The translations under genes were made by a program, and so were the position numbers. From Candidatus Methylomirabilota bacterium (GTDB lineage: Bacteria > Methylomirabilota > Methylomirabilia > Methylomirabilales > Methylomirabilaceae), in NCBI GenBank assembly GCA_023249055.1, contig JAHFDH010000003.1:1-41830 (forward strand): 41,830 nt of DNA, in the 5' to 3' direction. The notes beneath the pieces were generated by a model. It worked only from the letters and a program-made list of their open reading frames with translations. It was not told the origin of the DNA and did not search any database. Positions 4,010-11,193 of the stretch are shown here, piece by piece (position 1 is the first letter of the stretch; each line of letters opens with the position of its first letter).

Positions 4010-4477
4010 ATGGCTGCGGTAGCCGCTGTCATCTTTGTGGTAATGGCCTTATTTGGTTTGGCTTGGCCTTTTCTCTATACGTACAGGCTCAAGTGGAAAA
4101 GAATCGCCCTGGACAAGGAGATCCAGTACTTCCAGAATCGGGTGGCTATCGCGACATCGGACGCCATTCCCGGCCGGGCGACAGAACAGGTACTGGGTCC
4201 AGTGGCAGGGACCTCCCGCATACCCGCCTCAAACGATGACGAACGGCAACTGGCCGAGCGGGAGGCAATGCACAGTCTGATCAAACAAGCACTCCAGATG
4301 GGCGCCCACGCGGTCGTTGATCTGAAAATGACTACAGACAGTTACCAGCATACGGACCCGAGGAAATTACTCGTCTTCCCTGCTGTCACGTTCACGGCCA
4401 CGAAGATGACATACACGGGAACGGCGGTGAAATTAGTCCTGGCGGACTCTTCAGTGGAGGGGCGAAGGGGCGTTTAA
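4010..4477 (+). CDS. membrane-anchored YbjQ-like (heavy-metal-binding domain) protein
   Basis: N-terminal TM helix, then AEREAMHSLIKQALQMGAHAVVDLKMTTDSYQHTDPRKLLVFPAVTFTATKMTYTGTAVKL, resembling YbjQ/UPF0145. RBS AGGAGG at about 3998. Confidence 0.55.
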   Translation: MAAVAAVIFVVMALFGLAWPFLYTYRLKWKRIALDKEIQYFQNRVAIATSDAIPGRATEQVLGPVAGTSRIPASNDDERQLAEREAMHSLIKQALQMGAHAVVDLKMTTDSYQHTDPRKLLVFPAVTFTATKMTYTGTAVKLVLADSSVEGRRGV

Positions 4478-5739
4478 TGAGAAGGGTGCGTCAGTTCACT
4501 ATCTGGCAACGAATTATCGTCTCCTCGTTGGCTGTAGGGCTGCTGGTCGGGAATGCGGAAGCGGCGGGACCGCTCCGCGATACGATCAGAAATGTGTTTG
4601 GTCCGGATGGCATTATTCTCGATCCCGGCAGAGCCCTGCCCGGTAGCGGCTCACGGGCTGGCGACTTCCAAGCCTCATCGAGACAAGGTCTCGAGCAACT
4701 CAATGATCAGATCTCCTCAACCTTTGGAATAGTCTCGTTTAACTCTTCCGTGACGGGGTTTACTTTCGACCTTGAACGCGGAACTCCGATCCGAACCACT
4801 GAGAGCCTCGGTCCCCTCCTGACCGAGCGGGCGCCTACCTTGGGGGCCCGGCGTCTCGATGTGAACTTTACCTATACCCGAATCGCTTTCACGCAATTCC
4901 AAGGGTCGGACCTGGAGAACGTGCCCTTGATCTTTGCGGCTGAGGACATCAATCAGAATGGCATCATCGATAGGCGCGGTACCTTCAGATCCGAAAGTGA
5001 CCAGGTCCTGGTACGTCTAAAACTTGATATCAGCGAGGACCTCTTCGCCATGATTGCAACCTATGGTGTGACCTCCTCGTGGGACATCGGTGTCGTCGTT
5101 CCGGTGGTCCATCTTCGATTTCGGGCAGACGGCCAGGCCGCTATCGTTGACAAGAACGGAAACCCAGGCGGCACCTTCGTGAACGGGAGTCCTGTCCATC
5201 TCTTTAGGAACGGCTCAAGCTCGCTCACCGCTTCGGGCGGCGGTGATACTACGGGCGTGGGGGACGTGATCATTCGGACAAAATACAACCTGTTTACAAG
5301 CCACTCAGCGCTTCCGGATTTGTCGACTGTGGTGGAGGCGAAGCTTCCAACCGGGAGCAGGGACAACCTGTTGGGAACAGGCGGCACCAATCTCACCGGC
5401 CTGTTGGTGGCGTCCAGGACCTATGGTCGCTGGTTTACCCCACACCTCAACCTGGGGTATGTGAGGGATACCAGGGACACGCGCCAGAGCAAGATCCGCT
5501 ATGCGGGAGGCTTTGACGCGCGCCTTCTGGAACGGTTAACAGTCATAGCCGATATCATGGGATTTTCGAAGCCGAATGGGAACGGAGTAGGCAACAACAT
5601 CGTGGACCTCTCGCTTGGCGCCAAATGGAACCCCATCGGCTCCTGGTTCTTAGGCGCGAACTTTCAGATCCCTCTCAATAAAGGCAGTGGTCTTCGAGCC
5701 GACTTCATTCCAACCTTTGCGGTCGAGTACCTCTTCTAG
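4477..5739 (+). CDS. outer-membrane beta-barrel / transporter-like protein
   Basis: Signal peptide; alternating hydrophobic strands with a C-terminal aromatic (FAVEYLF). Start overlaps upstream stop (TAATG). Confidence 0.65.
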   Translation: MRRVRQFTIWQRIIVSSLAVGLLVGNAEAAGPLRDTIRNVFGPDGIILDPGRALPGSGSRAGDFQASSRQGLEQLNDQISSTFGIVSFNSSVTGFTFDLERGTPIRTTESLGPLLTERAPTLGARRLDVNFTYTRIAFTQFQGSDLENVPLIFAAEDINQNGIIDRRGTFRSESDQVLVRLKLDISEDLFAMIATYGVTSSWDIGVVVPVVHLRFRADGQAAIVDKNGNPGGTFVNGSPVHLFRNGSSSLTASGGGDTTGVGDVIIRTKYNLFTSHSALPDLSTVVEAKLPTGSRDNLLGTGGTNLTGLLVASRTYGRWFTPHLNLGYVRDTRDTRQSKIRYAGGFDARLLERLTVIADIMGFSKPNGNGVGNNIVDLSLGAKWNPIGSWFLGANFQIPLNKGSGLRADFIPTFAVEYLF

Positions 5740-5742
5740 TTC

Positions 5743-6687
5743 ATGGTAATTCAGACAATTCGTATTGGCCACCTCCTCTCATCACTCGCACTCCTCACTG
5801 CAGTTGCGACCTTCCCTTCATTGACAGAGGCAGCGAAGATCATTGCGCTCAAGAGCGCCGATGTCGATGTCTACAATGAAGCGTTGGAGGGATTCAGGAA
5901 CGGTTCGCAGGGGTCTGCTATCATCGAGTACGATATGCAGGGAGATCTCCAGAAAGGCAAGAAGTTTCTAGCGCGACTCAGGTCCGGACCCAAGCCGGAC
6001 CTCATCCTTGCAGTGGGGATCTGGGCCTTGCAGGTTGTGGCTGAGGAGGTACAAGATATCCCGGTCGTCTTTGCCATGGTGTTGAACCCGACCACAGTCA
6101 TCGGACAGGAGGCCCGCAATATTACCGGCGCCAGCATGAATGTTCCGATAGAGCAACAACTCGCCCTGCTGAAAACGATCTCGCCCCACGTCGGAAGAAT
6201 CGGCGTTATCTATGATCCCTCTAAGACCGGCTGGTTGGTGAGGCAAGCTGAGCGGCTCGCCAAAGATCATGGTGTCAGGCTCGTCACCAAGGCTGTTACC
6301 TCGCCAAAGGACTCGTTTGCTGCCCTGGAAGCCATGCAGGACGAGATCGACGCCCTTTGGATTTTACCGGATCTGACCGTTCTGGCGCCGGAATCGGTTC
6401 AGTACATGCTGCTGTTCTCCTTCAGACATAAGATTCCTGTCCTGGGACTCTCGGAGAACCAGGTCCGCATGGGCGCTCTCTTCGGTCTTTCTTTTGAGAG
6501 CGGATGGGATATCGGAAGCCAGGCTGCGGAGTTGGCAAGCGGGATCCTCGCCGGTAAACGCATCGAAGAGATGCCTGTCACAACTGCGAGAAAGCTGCGG
6601 TTAACGGTGAATCTGAAGAGCGCCGGCAAGCTCGGGGTGCACATCCCCAAGGAGATCCTCGACCGGGCTGACGTGGTGATCCGATAG
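5743..6687 (+). CDS. ABC-type substrate-binding protein (ABC_sub_bind / TrpX-like family)
   Basis: Signal peptide; AVGIWALQVVAEEVQDIPVVFAMVLNPTT...NITGASMNVPIEQQLALLKTISPHVGRIGVIYDPSKTG. No permease or ATPase nearby. Confidence 0.82.
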   Translation: MVIQTIRIGHLLSSLALLTAVATFPSLTEAAKIIALKSADVDVYNEALEGFRNGSQGSAIIEYDMQGDLQKGKKFLARLRSGPKPDLILAVGIWALQVVAEEVQDIPVVFAMVLNPTTVIGQEARNITGASMNVPIEQQLALLKTISPHVGRIGVIYDPSKTGWLVRQAERLAKDHGVRLVTKAVTSPKDSFAALEAMQDEIDALWILPDLTVLAPESVQYMLLFSFRHKIPVLGLSENQVRMGALFGLSFESGWDIGSQAAELASGILAGKRIEEMPVTTARKLRLTVNLKSAGKLGVHIPKEILDRADVVIR

Positions 6688-6723: not shown

Positions 6724-8430
6724 ATGAGAATCAGGCGGATAACCAGATTCCGGACAAAGGTTCTGCTGTCGATCATTCCGATGATTCTGGCCCTCTGTGT
6801 CCTCTTCGGCGGGATGTCGCTGTATCAGCATAACAGATTGCTGCACAGCGAGTTTGTGAAACGCGGAAAGGCGCTTGCCAGCAATCTGGCCGCCAGCAGC
6901 GAACTCGGCGTATTCAGCGAGGATGAGCGGCTGTTGAATGCTGCGTTGCGCGGGATTACCGGTGAAGAGGATGTCGCCTACGTTCTTATTTACAACGACA
7001 TTGGGAAGCGTCTGATCGGCGGAGGTAAAGCGTTGGTCCAACCCGGCCTCACCTCGACCACTGAAACCTTGAGTCCCGAGCTCCGCGCACAGATGCTCAC
7101 CGACCGCCAACCGACCAGCACGATCATGAAGGAAGCCGGGACGGAGTCGTTTCTGGAGTTTTATGCGCCGATCCTCTCTACCGAAGTCCGCCTGGTCGAA
7201 GAACAATACTTCGGGATGCCCCAATCGACTCGAGGTCCCGGCGAGAACCGGAGCCGTGTCATTGGATTTGCAAGGGTCGGCCTGTCGATGCGGAATATTG
7301 ATGCCCACTCGGCCTACTTGATCAAACTCTGGGCTATTCTATCCGTCGTCTTTCTGGTCGGCGGCGCGCTCGCCGCGTATGCCCTCTCCCGGAGGATCAC
7401 GCAGCCGATTACTCGGCTGACAGAATCTACCGCACGGATGGCCGAGGGGCAGATCGATCAGGAAATCCCGGTCGATTCTCAGGATGAACTCGGGACATTG
7501 GCGACCACCTACAACGAGATGGCCAAAGCATTAACGCGTACCCTGGATGAACGGGCGAGAGTGGCCATAGAGCTGCGGGACCTGAACCGACACCTGGAGG
7601 ATCGGATTCGCGAACGGACCTCTGAATTGGTAGAAACCAACCGCCAACTCGCGCGGGCAAGTCGCCACAAATCAGAGTTCCTGGCCAATATGAGTCATGA
7701 GTTGCGAACACCCTTAAATGCAATCCTGGGTTTTGCCGAGCTGATCATGGATGGGGTCTATGGTACGGTCCCGGACGAGTTGCGCGAGTCGATTGAAGAC
7801 ATCCATATCAACGGCCGGCACCTGCTCAGGCTGATCAACGATGTCCTGGATCTTTCGAAAATTGAAGCCGGACAGATGCGGTTGAACCTGGGTGAATGCT
7901 CTATTCAATCATTAATCGACTCTACGATCTCAGCAACCCGATCGCTTGCAGCAGAGAAACGGCTGGAGTTGGCCAGTCGCGTTGAGACGGGTCTGCCGCC
8001 CGCGTTGAGCGACAGCAAGCGCATTACTCAGGTCTTAATGAATCTCGTCGGCAATGCCATTAAATTCACCCCCAGAGGCGGTTCCATCACGGTCACCGCA
8101 CGGCGAGCGGCGAGCGGCGAGCGGCGAGCGGCGAGCGTAGAACCCGAACCCCCGACCCCCGACCCCGAGGCCTCGGATTTTATCGAGATCGCCGTTGCGG
8201 ATACGGGAATAGGCATTCCTGCCGAAGAGCTGAAAAGTATTTTCGCCGAATTTCGCCAGGTCGACAGCTCCATCACCAGGGAATACGGTGGAAGCGGTCT
8301 CGGCCTCAGCATCGCCAAACGGTTGGTTGAGATGCATGAGGGCTCCATCTGGGCGGAAAGTCAGGTTGGAAAGGGATCAATCTTCTACTTCCGTATTCCT
8401 CTCCGGACTCAGTCGGGGGGCAGCCTGTGA
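6724..8430 (+). CDS. membrane sensor histidine kinase (periplasmic sensor, HAMP, HisKA, HATPase_c)
   Basis: Two TM segments; HAMP (RRITQPITRLTESTARMAEGQIDQEI); H-box FLANMSHELRTPLNAILGFAEL; N-box NLVGNAIKFTPRGG; G-boxes DTGIGIP and GGSGLGLSIAKRLV. Confidence 0.95.
   Translation: MRIRRITRFRTKVLLSIIPMILALCVLFGGMSLYQHNRLLHSEFVKRGKALASNLAASSELGVFSEDERLLNAALRGITGEEDVAYVLIYNDIGKRLIGGGKALVQPGLTSTTETLSPELRAQMLTDRQPTSTIMKEAGTESFLEFYAPILSTEVRLVEEQYFGMPQSTRGPGENRSRVIGFARVGLSMRNIDAHSAYLIKLWAILSVVFLVGGALAAYALSRRITQPITRLTESTARMAEGQIDQEIPVDSQDELGTLATTYNEMAKALTRTLDERARVAIELRDLNRHLEDRIRERTSELVETNRQLARASRHKSEFLANMSHELRTPLNAILGFAELIMDGVYGTVPDELRESIEDIHINGRHLLRLINDVLDLSKIEAGQMRLNLGECSIQSLIDSTISATRSLAAEKRLELASRVETGLPPALSDSKRITQVLMNLVGNAIKFTPRGGSITVTARRAASGERRAASVEPEPPTPDPEASDFIEIAVADTGIGIPAEELKSIFAEFRQVDSSITREYGGSGLGLSIAKRLVEMHEGSIWAESQVGKGSIFYFRIPLRTQSGGSL
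8101..8135 (+). repeat. 7-bp tandem repeat (CGGCGAG)x5 inside histidine kinase CDS, followed by a C-rich AACCCGAACCCCCGACCCCCGACCCCGAG tract (8141-8169)
   Basis: Directly read: CGGCGAG repeated five times from 8101 to 8135. Confidence 0.95.
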
Positions 8431-8798
8431 GCGGGAAACTGATCTTGCATGTTGAGGACAACCAATACAATCGAAAGATCATCAGGGACCTCCTTTCCAA
8501 ACACAGCTATGAGATCATGGAGGCTCACAATGGAGAGGTAGCGCTCGACGCATTAGCGCGCCGGCGACCTGATCTGATCCTGATGGATGTTCAGTTGCCT
8601 AAGCTTTCCGGCCTTGAAGTGACTCGGAGGGTGAGGGCTGACCCCTCACTTGCCCAGATCCCGATCATCGCCATCACCTCGTTTGCTCTGAGTGGCGATG
8701 ATCGTTTGGCCTTGGACGCGGGTTGCAATGCCTATGTCGCAAAGCCCTTCAGGCCGAGGGATCTCCTGGAGATGATTCGAGGCTTCTTGGGTCCGTGA
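8427..8798 (+). CDS. stand-alone CheY-like response regulator receiver
   Basis: HVEDNQYNRKIIRDLL...PDLILMDVQLPKLSGLEVTRRVR...KPFRPRDLLEMI. GTGA overlap with HK stop. Confidence 0.93.
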   Translation: MSGKLILHVEDNQYNRKIIRDLLSKHSYEIMEAHNGEVALDALARRRPDLILMDVQLPKLSGLEVTRRVRADPSLAQIPIIAITSFALSGDDRLALDAGCNAYVAKPFRPRDLLEMIRGFLGP

Positions 8799-8880: not shown

Positions 8881-10266
8881 ATGGACGCATATCGAACGAA
8901 AGTACTGATCGTTGACGATGATCCATCGGCCAGGAAGATTCTTCAGGGCCGGCTGCGGATCATGAACGTTCAGGCGCTTGTTGCATCCAACGGCTCTGAG
9001 GCCCTCGAACAGGTCCGCGAGGAGGCGCCCGGGGTGGTCCTGCTTGACCTGCAGATGCCGAAGATGTCGGGAATCGACGTTCTCAGATCGTTGAAACGTG
9101 AAGGACTGGAACCGACCGTCATTGTTGTGACCGCGCACGCCACTGTCGAAGCAGCTGTCGAAGCAATGAAAGAGGGCGCCTACGACTTCATCACCAAGCC
9201 TGTTGATTCACAACATCTGGAGATCGTCCTGACAAAGGCATTCGAGCGGGAGTCGTTGCGGGCACACAGTCGCCTCTTGCAGACGGAAATGGAGGACCGT
9301 CTCGTTAAGGTTATAGCGGACAATCCAACCATGAAGCAGCTGCTGCAGCTCGCCCGCCGCGCTGCCGGCAGCAATTCAACCATCCTGCTCCTGGGCGAAA
9401 GCGGAACCGGCAAGGAGGTTCTGGCCAGAAGCATTCACCAGTGGAGTCTTCGGGCGCACTACCCGTTCACTGTCGTGAATTGTGTAGCCATCCCGGAGCA
9501 GTTGCTGGAAAGCGAGCTGTTCGGCCACGAACGGGGAGCCTTCACCGGCGCACATCAGCTCAAAAGAGGCCGGTTCGAGATTGCGGATCGCGGCACGGTT
9601 TTTCTCGACGAAATAGGGGAGGTCCCGATCGGCACCCAGACGAAACTCCTTCGGGTGTTGCAACACCACGAGTTTGAGCGAGTCGGGGGAACCCGTCCGA
9701 TTAAGGCCGACATCCGCGTGATTGCGGCCACCAACAGCGACCTGGAACGGGCAGTGCGAGAGGGCCGCTTTCGGGAAGACCTCTACTATCGGCTGAACGT
9801 CGTCAGCATCAAGCTGCCGCCGTTGAGGGAACGGAAAGAAGATATTCCTGCGTTGGTCGACTACTTCCTGAGAAAGTACGCGGGCGAGCTGAAAAAACCT
9901 TTGAAGCGCCTTGGCCTCGGTGCGGTGGACGACTTGATGGCCTATCATTGGCCGGGAAACGTGCGCGAACTGGAGAATGTGGTTGAACGGGCTATGGTCT
10001 TGAGCATAGGGGATCAGATCGGCTCGGAGGACCTGCCGCTTCAGATCACCACAGGCCCTCGCCGTGAATCGTTCAGAGGAAAGGAATTCCACGAAGCCGT
10101 TAAGGAGTTCAAGCGGTGGGTGATTCAGGATGCGCTCAAGCGTTCGCAGGGTAATCAGACTAAGGCGGCGGAGCTCCTTGGGCTTCAGCGCACCTACCTC
10201 GTCAAACTGGTCCGGTTGCTGGAGGTGAAGGCGGACTCGAACCCCATCAAGAAAGGCGGCTCTTGA
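8881..10266 (+). CDS. NtrC-family sigma-54-dependent response regulator
   Basis: Receiver (LLDLQMPKMSG), AAA+ (GESGTGKE, HERGAFTGAHQ, FLDEIGEV) with GAFTGA intact, Fis-type HTH (NQTKAAELLGLQRTYLVKLVRLL). RBS GGAGGAG. Confidence 0.97.
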   Translation: MDAYRTKVLIVDDDPSARKILQGRLRIMNVQALVASNGSEALEQVREEAPGVVLLDLQMPKMSGIDVLRSLKREGLEPTVIVVTAHATVEAAVEAMKEGAYDFITKPVDSQHLEIVLTKAFERESLRAHSRLLQTEMEDRLVKVIADNPTMKQLLQLARRAAGSNSTILLLGESGTGKEVLARSIHQWSLRAHYPFTVVNCVAIPEQLLESELFGHERGAFTGAHQLKRGRFEIADRGTVFLDEIGEVPIGTQTKLLRVLQHHEFERVGGTRPIKADIRVIAATNSDLERAVREGRFREDLYYRLNVVSIKLPPLRERKEDIPALVDYFLRKYAGELKKPLKRLGLGAVDDLMAYHWPGNVRELENVVERAMVLSIGDQIGSEDLPLQITTGPRRESFRGKEFHEAVKEFKRWVIQDALKRSQGNQTKAAELLGLQRTYLVKLVRLLEVKADSNPIKKGGS

Positions 10267-10457
10267 CGCAGCCATAAGATCGTCGTCTATGTATCTTTTT
10301 CGATCCTATGTTGTATGCGATTAGGTACTATCTTTTAACGCAACGTTAGAACCAGCCGGATCTTCTCCTTTCGTCGGTCTGTCATCGCGCGCTTAAATTC
10401 ACCAGGTTGACCGGCCATCCCCTGAACAAGAGAGAGTTGGGCAGCCGGATTTTGATG

Positions 10458-10472
10458 TGGCACGCTTGTTGC
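10458..10472 (+). promoter_or_regulatory. sigma-54 (-24/-12) promoter
   Basis: TGGCAC-GCTTG-TTGC (TGGCACGCTTGTTGC): matches the consensus TGGCAC-N5-TTGC, about 190 bp downstream of the sigma-54 activator gene. Confidence 0.7.
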
Positions 10473-10483
10473 CTAGTATTATC

Positions 10484-10605
10484 GCAACATCCTTGTCTTT
10501 GGCATGGTCGTTCAACTGACGACCGTTTCCAAAGCTTATGTCGCGTCCAAGGGGCTCCAGAGGAGAGCCTATCCGCTACCCCCCGGAGGGCTCTCCTCTC
10601 TACCC
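10484..10605 (+). ncRNA. candidate sigma-54-dependent structured small RNA (or structured leader)
   Basis: Begins about 12 nt after the -12 element. Hairpin 1 at 10497-10534 (CTTTGG cat GGTCGT ... ACGACC gttt CCAAAG). Hairpin 2 at 10559-10599 (11-bp perfect stem AGAGGAGAGCC/GGCTCTCCTCT). No credible CDS. Boundaries are guesses. Confidence 0.4.
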
Positions 10606-10796
10606 CATCCTCTCAACTATCTGTTGCTTTCTTCTCTCATAGATCCAGCCGGCCGCTGACTGCTCGCTCTGTTAACCTGATCTCTAATTCTCCTTTGACC
10701 CATGTGGCTCAGATTGTTTAAAGTTATCCGGACGTGTTCTGTTGATGGCGGGTTGCCACTTTCGGTTTAAACGAATGCACCTGCCGCGGCGTCTTA

Positions 10797-10816
10797 TTGT
10801 GCATATTATTGTACAA
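10797..10816. promoter_or_regulatory. operator-like imperfect palindrome TTGTGCA-N6-TGTACAA
   Basis: 7-bp half-sites with one mismatch, 108 bp upstream of the small ORF at 10924. Confidence 0.25.
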
Positions 10817-10923
10817 CCGAGGACGTTGTGAATGGTTGGCTTGGTCCCCTTCATGGGCAAACAGCCTTTGCGCGATATAGGCAGACAGAACAGAGACGGC
10901 AGTTAAGACGACGAGGGTAAAAG

Positions 10924-11193
10924 ATGGCGACAATTATCGAATACACTGACCAAAAGAGGCCGGTCAACACTTATCCGAAGCGAATGATCTCACCATCTTC
11001 ACCAGGCCCATGCTGTTACTCTAAGATGGAACAGATCGGGGTGGAACAGCACGAAGAGGGCTGGAGCTTCATCTATAAGCGCTGCAAGAAGTGCGGTTTT
11101 GCCGTCCGTCACGTCACCGCCCGAAATCCGCAACTCCTTGCAACGAAAGGTTCTCGTTTCGAATACCGGGAGTCAATCGGTTTTCACAACTAG
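10924..11193 (+). CDS. hypothetical small Cys-containing (zinc-ribbon-like) protein
   Basis: 89 aa with CC and CKKC motifs (SSPGPCCYSKMEQIG...YKRCKKCGFAVRHV). Plausible RBS (GAGGGT) upstream. Confidence 0.5.
   Translation: MATIIEYTDQKRPVNTYPKRMISPSSPGPCCYSKMEQIGVEQHEEGWSFIYKRCKKCGFAVRHVTARNPQLLATKGSRFEYRESIGFHN

Follow-up and report, generated by a model that had tools for sequence, protein, structure and literature searches.

The 41,830-nucleotide (nt) stretch of Candidatus Methylomirabilota DNA analyzed here (contig JAHFDH010000003.1, forward strand; referred to as the window) carries, directly 3' of an NtrC-type activator gene, a conserved sigma-54 promoter followed by a conserved, covarying hairpin (hairpin 2). 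We interpret this locus as a dedicated gene for a trans-acting, non-coding small RNA that depends on sigma-54 and the NtrC-type protein, and assign this interpretation a probability of about 0.62. The predicted RNA would measure roughly 120 to 290 nt, depending on the species. The case is built from sequence comparison, namely, conservation of the promoter, the fold and its covariation, conservation of the hairpin loop, co-occurrence with the activator gene, and the decayed RNA of a genome that has lost the activator. An earlier note on the window had proposed either a sigma-54-dependent small RNA or a structured leader of the gene starting at position 10924. The first proposal is supported by the promoter and hairpin 2 of relatives and by the covariation of the latter; the second is not (see below).

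Distribution of the RNA and its decay without the activator

The window is contig C20 of genome G000 (1.99 Mb, 83.5% complete). We compared 15 genomes of the genus, including G000, and 80 other genomes across the phylum. The RNA-carrying genus is probably the methane-oxidizing "Ca. Methylomirabilis" (phylum NC10); a gene with the PF02461 domain (particulate methane/ammonia monooxygenase) is present in G000 and G005. The promoter and hairpin 2 occur as a single copy in 13 of the 15 genus genomes, 12 of which have them directly 3' of an orthologous NtrC-type gene. Conservation of the promoter and the hairpins in close relatives had been set beforehand as a test, and it was found for the promoter and hairpin 2. 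A covariance model built from three sequences detected one RNA site per genome in the 13 carriers and none in G001 and G010, both of which also lack the kinase and the activator. Matches in DNA searches were confined to the genus, and the G001 match comprised only the stretch upstream of an RNHCP-like gene. Three weak model matches among the 80 other genomes, all from the same class (E values of 0.004 to 0.008), were taken as chance, and reverse-strand matches at the locus were attributed to its palindrome.

Genome G004 has no orthologous kinase, and its activator gene is reduced to a C-terminal remnant (locus L025, ~8014 to 8700), while the promoter and a diverged RNA persist. The core of this RNA is 57 to 67% identical to the others, which are 73 to 100% identical among themselves; the nad genes of G004 are no more divergent than those of other carriers. 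This pattern points to relaxed selection on the RNA after loss of the activator, with G004 as a natural loss in progress.

Structure of the predicted RNA

Counted from the predicted start, a 121-nt segment has a folding energy of -54 kcal/mol (z = -5.9), and none of 200 shuffled sequences was equally stable. Hairpin 2 has the position and sequence that the earlier note gave it, but not the stem length (11 base pairs [bp]), as in the window the stem has 16 pairs and a bulged A and is extended by an outer GGGG/CCCC stem. In a model-based alignment of 12 distinct sequences, 96.1% of the cells in hairpin 2 and the outer stem were paired (slid controls, 48 to 64%). Covariation was strong: 13 of the 20 pairs had changed on both sides compared with a shuffled mean of 3.4, and none of 500 shuffles reached 13. 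This alignment was fitted to the structure and is hence biased in its favor; separate single-sequence folds returned the same hairpin 2 helix with the same pair exchanges. The hairpin top (CCGCUACCCCCCGG) deviates only in G004, G006, and G009, whereas the stem varies.

The 5' part differs among species. In 11 relatives, a 25-bp helix lies between the promoter and hairpin 2, with 92.7% of cells paired (shuffled mean, 90.2; slid controls, 22 to 57%); six of its pairs show double changes. The stretch described earlier as hairpin 1 corresponds to the 3' arm of this longer helix. Because the 5' arm is absent from the window and from G005, which are sisters in the activator tree, hairpin 1 is a derived remnant. 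Its sequence is as first described, but that form is not conserved: the sequences of relatives did not show the outer CTTTGG/CCAAAG arms, and the inner 6-bp stem covaried no better than shuffles.

Promoter and control region

In the window, the -24/-12 element recognized in the earlier note is the only site that fits TGGCACGN4TTGC exactly; when one mismatch was allowed, three sites were found and 0.92 were expected by chance. The whole genome contains two exact copies, the second at L002:1501-1515 (contig C109 of G000). Since such a motif is too common to serve as proof on its own, the case for the promoter rests on its conservation among relatives. The rpoN gene was found in all four genomes checked. 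Three parts of the upstream DNA stood out as conserved in the alignment: a 38-bp block ~150 bp upstream of the promoter, overlooked in the earlier note; an AT-rich, IHF-like stretch, of which the window has a degenerate version; and the -24/-12 element itself. Among ten genus genomes searched, the 38-bp block had a single match in each of eight and was not found in G001 or G004. It is probably the binding site of the activator. That the neighboring kinase and activator control the RNA, as previously suggested, is supported only indirectly, by synteny, the upstream block, the joint absence of these genes and the RNA, and the decay of the RNA without the activator.

Table 1. Features of the window discussed in the text
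Feature	Positions	Strand	Basis
Outer-membrane-type protein (Phenol_MetA_deg family), opens conserved cluster	4477..5739	+	Pfam PF13557 (5e-9); synteny
Solute-binding protein (ABC_sub_bind, TrpX-like)	5743..6687	+	PF04392 (1e-38); synteny
Histidine kinase with HAMP domain	6724..8430	+	Pfam; orthologue absent from G001, G004, G010
Single-domain response regulator	8427..8798	+	PF00072
NtrC-type sigma-54 activator, presumed RNA regulator	8881..10266	+	PF00158, PF00072, PF02954
Upstream block of the GTAYC-N28-RGTAC type, conserved; presumed binding site of the activator	10291..10328	+	Alignment footprint; one match per genome in 8 genomes
Sigma-54 -24/-12 promoter TGGCACGCTTGTTGC; predicted start ~10484	10458..10472	+	Conserved in 13 genomes; rpoN present
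Hairpin 1, derived, shortened form of the 25-bp helix of relatives	10497..10534	+	Fold, alignment; G000 and G005 are sisters
Conserved word GUCGCGUCC on the 5' side of hairpin 2	10540..10548	+	Alignment
Outer stem GGGG (10551-10554)/CCCC (10603-10606) around hairpin 2	10551..10606	+	Fold; 88.4% of cells paired; double change in 2 of 4 pairs
Hairpin 2, conserved covarying element	10559..10599	+	97.9% of cells paired; double change in 11 of 16 pairs
Top of hairpin 2, CCGCUACCCCCCGG, nearly invariant; C-rich loop exposed	10573..10586	+	Alignment
C-rich, G-poor stretch without T-tract; likely 3'-end region	10600..10640	+	Sequence; no terminator-like site
Sigma-70-like promoter between RNA and 10924 gene	10695..10724		Aligned in relatives

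Proposed mode of action

From this arrangement we infer transcription, the identity of the activator, action in trans, and the use of the loop. A signal, for which the solute-binding protein and the kinase are perhaps the sensors, would lead to activation of the adjacent NtrC-type protein, which would bind the upstream block and switch on the sigma-54 promoter. In the resulting RNA, a 5' helix that evolves fast would be followed by a highly stable 3' hairpin, with the C-rich loop CUACCCCC exposed above nearly invariant closing pairs. Because the rigid hairpin exposes a single C-rich loop, this loop is the likely contact surface and would most likely pair with G-rich sites of target mRNAs. We prefer mRNA pairing to protein binding by analogy with the alpha-r14 RNAs (see below). 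A more far-reaching proposal, which we hold only tentatively, is that the RNA founds a new Hfq-independent family confined to this genus. The signaling cassette would then have one RNA as its only recognized output, the rigid C-rich loop would block G-rich ribosome-binding sites, and the 5' part would be free to turn over.

Several observations weigh against a trans-acting small RNA. Many trans-acting RNAs of Gram-negative bacteria use Hfq, and no match to Hfq (PF17209) was found in the four genus genomes examined (G000, G003, G005, and G008, three of them at least 99% complete), although a divergent Hfq could escape such a search; a control search with PF17209 gave matches in five known genomes. 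Limited searches revealed no conserved target. There is also no 3'-end signal: the lack of a T-tract after hairpin 2, already pointed out in the earlier note, was confirmed, and no terminator-like site was found there. Finally, the argument from RNA decay comes from one lineage (G004), and G010, one of the two genomes without the RNA, is just 83% complete.

Individual target candidates were rejected. The exact loop complement GGGGGGTAGC was no commoner than its reversed control. A trk-type gene whose ribosome site contains this word in G009 and G004 was not conserved as a candidate, nor was the start of the response-regulator gene in the window (GGGGGGCAGC). In most genomes, the ribosome site of the activator gene (GGAGGAGAG) is similar to the 5' arm of hairpin 2. 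The two have changed together in G002, G006, and G011, but this change amounts to a single event, and purine-rich sites of that kind are common.

Alternative explanations

The RNA could instead act as a sigma-54-controlled protein decoy, as CrcZ does for Hfq/Crc; the protein would then bind the fixed C-rich loop. A near-invariant loop on a varying stem would fit this role, as would the absence of Hfq and of a conserved complementary mRNA site in the limited searches. However, known decoy RNAs have several sites, whereas each genome here has a single RNA with a single such loop, and no candidate protein was identified. We therefore consider a decoy unlikely.

The transcript might also be, or have been, an mRNA for a membrane peptide of ~50 residues that has decayed in most species, with hairpin 2 as a structured 3' untranslated region. 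A hydrophobic, PWSLVAV-like stretch is common to short open frames of G002, G011, and G004, which are accompanied by possible ribosome sites. Nevertheless, no reading frame scored above column shuffles, which bears out the earlier description of the segment as apparently non-coding. G003, G009, G013, G006, and G012 carry an interrupted or frameshifted version of the frame, its 5' part is absent from G000 and G005, and the same bases pair in the 25-bp helix. For these reasons, a non-coding RNA is preferred, and a peptide gene seems quite improbable.

A stable GC-rich hairpin that lies at a constant place on the same strand, ~290 nt past the activator stop codon, could also be the 3' end or a stability element of the kinase-activator operon mRNA, the sigma-54 promoter being incidental or serving a short by-product. 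We regard this as very unlikely, because a T-tract is missing, the conserved promoter and upstream block intervene, a terminator has no need of a conserved hairpin top, and G004 keeps the promoter and the hairpin without the operon. A structured leader of the 10924 gene, on the same strand and with no intervening gene in the window, is scarcely credible given that the downstream gene differs among relatives and that a sigma-70-like promoter lies in between.

Downstream genes

The gene after the RNA is RNHCP-like in the window, G005, and G008, of the TetR type in G007, and of other kinds in G006 and G011. The TetR-type gene of G007 (L028:7120-7725) directly follows the RNA and is preceded by the conserved sigma-70-like promoter and a palindrome-like site, ACTAACCGGTCGGTT. 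Of these control sites, the window retains the promoter-like one only. Positions 10740 to 10921 of the window, upstream of the RNHCP-like gene, show conservation in G001 and G004 that does not depend on the RNA and probably represent the control region of that gene itself.

The signaling cluster and the activator gene

In 12 of the 13 carriers, the gene order is solute-binding protein, kinase, (response regulator), NtrC-type activator, promoter, and RNA; the response regulator was not found within the clusters of G006 and G011. The solute-binding protein is a possible signal receptor. The activator comprises receiver, sigma-54 AAA+, and Fis-type domains (Pfam), and its orthologues are 76 to 92% identical. 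Its GAFTGA motif, which the earlier note had reported, is present and was also used for finding orthologues. Searched for relatives of the kinase, named genomes yielded distant ones only (at most 47% identity).

At seven loci (L022, L026, L027, L028, L030, L031, and L032), the kinase aligned with that of the window as two segments separated by a gap, and one part was repeated (residues ~270 to 302 or more matched twice), as if these kinases possessed an extra internal sensor domain without a counterpart in the window. A paralogous NtrC-type activator (G000:C39:2992-4350; 56% identical) is conserved across most genus genomes. A distant cluster of solute-binding protein, kinase, regulator, and activator genes was found in G032, from another family of the order (L149:2686-7202); no such RNA was found with it, and a convergent gene directly follows the cluster.

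Comparison with known systems

No Rfam family matched at the gathering score. A search with a permissive E value returned only microRNA models, far below threshold, and none for locus L032. Among known sigma-54-dependent small RNAs, NrsZ of Pseudomonas aeruginosa is under the control of NtrC and RpoN; the RNA described here has no Rfam match. The Qrr RNAs are Hfq dependent.

The closest parallels in gene arrangement are CrcZ and Qrr1. CrcZ of Pseudomonas lies directly downstream of cbrB, which encodes an NtrC-family activator, and has an RpoN-dependent promoter activated by CbrB (PMC10562864). The RNA predicted here likewise adjoins an NtrC-type gene behind a sigma-54 promoter. However, CrcZ sequesters Hfq/Crc, whereas here no Hfq was found and a single C-rich loop is conserved, and no sequence kinship was detected by Rfam. 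Qrr1 of Vibrio neighbors the gene of its NtrC-type activator, LuxO, and the Qrr1 promoter contains sites for the activator and for sigma-54 (PMC8043402). Our RNA shares the position beside the activator gene but has no sequence match to Qrr1 in Rfam. The alpha-r14 RNAs (NfeR1 and others; cuckoo RNA) have an ultraconserved, unpaired C-rich motif on hairpins whose stems vary (PMC10746234). A fixed C-rich loop on a variable stem is also seen here, but their motif (CCUCCUCCC) is carried by three hairpins, whereas the present RNA has a single hairpin with CUACCCCC, is under predicted sigma-54 control, and belongs to another phylum.

We therefore file the predicted transcript as a further case of a known kind, a sigma-54-dependent small RNA with an adjacent activator gene, matched by no known Rfam family and probably an undescribed regulatory RNA. 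In the open-licence literature searched, no regulatory small RNA has been described for "Ca. Methylomirabilis." The locus offers a precise candidate, with a promoter, a putative activator site, a structure, and a genome in which the activator has been lost naturally. If the RNA acts in trans, it would provide a handle on gene regulation in methane oxidizers that are hard to grow, and the design of CrcZ and Qrr1, an activator with an adjacent RNA, would extend to a distant phylum, in genomes in which no Hfq was detected.
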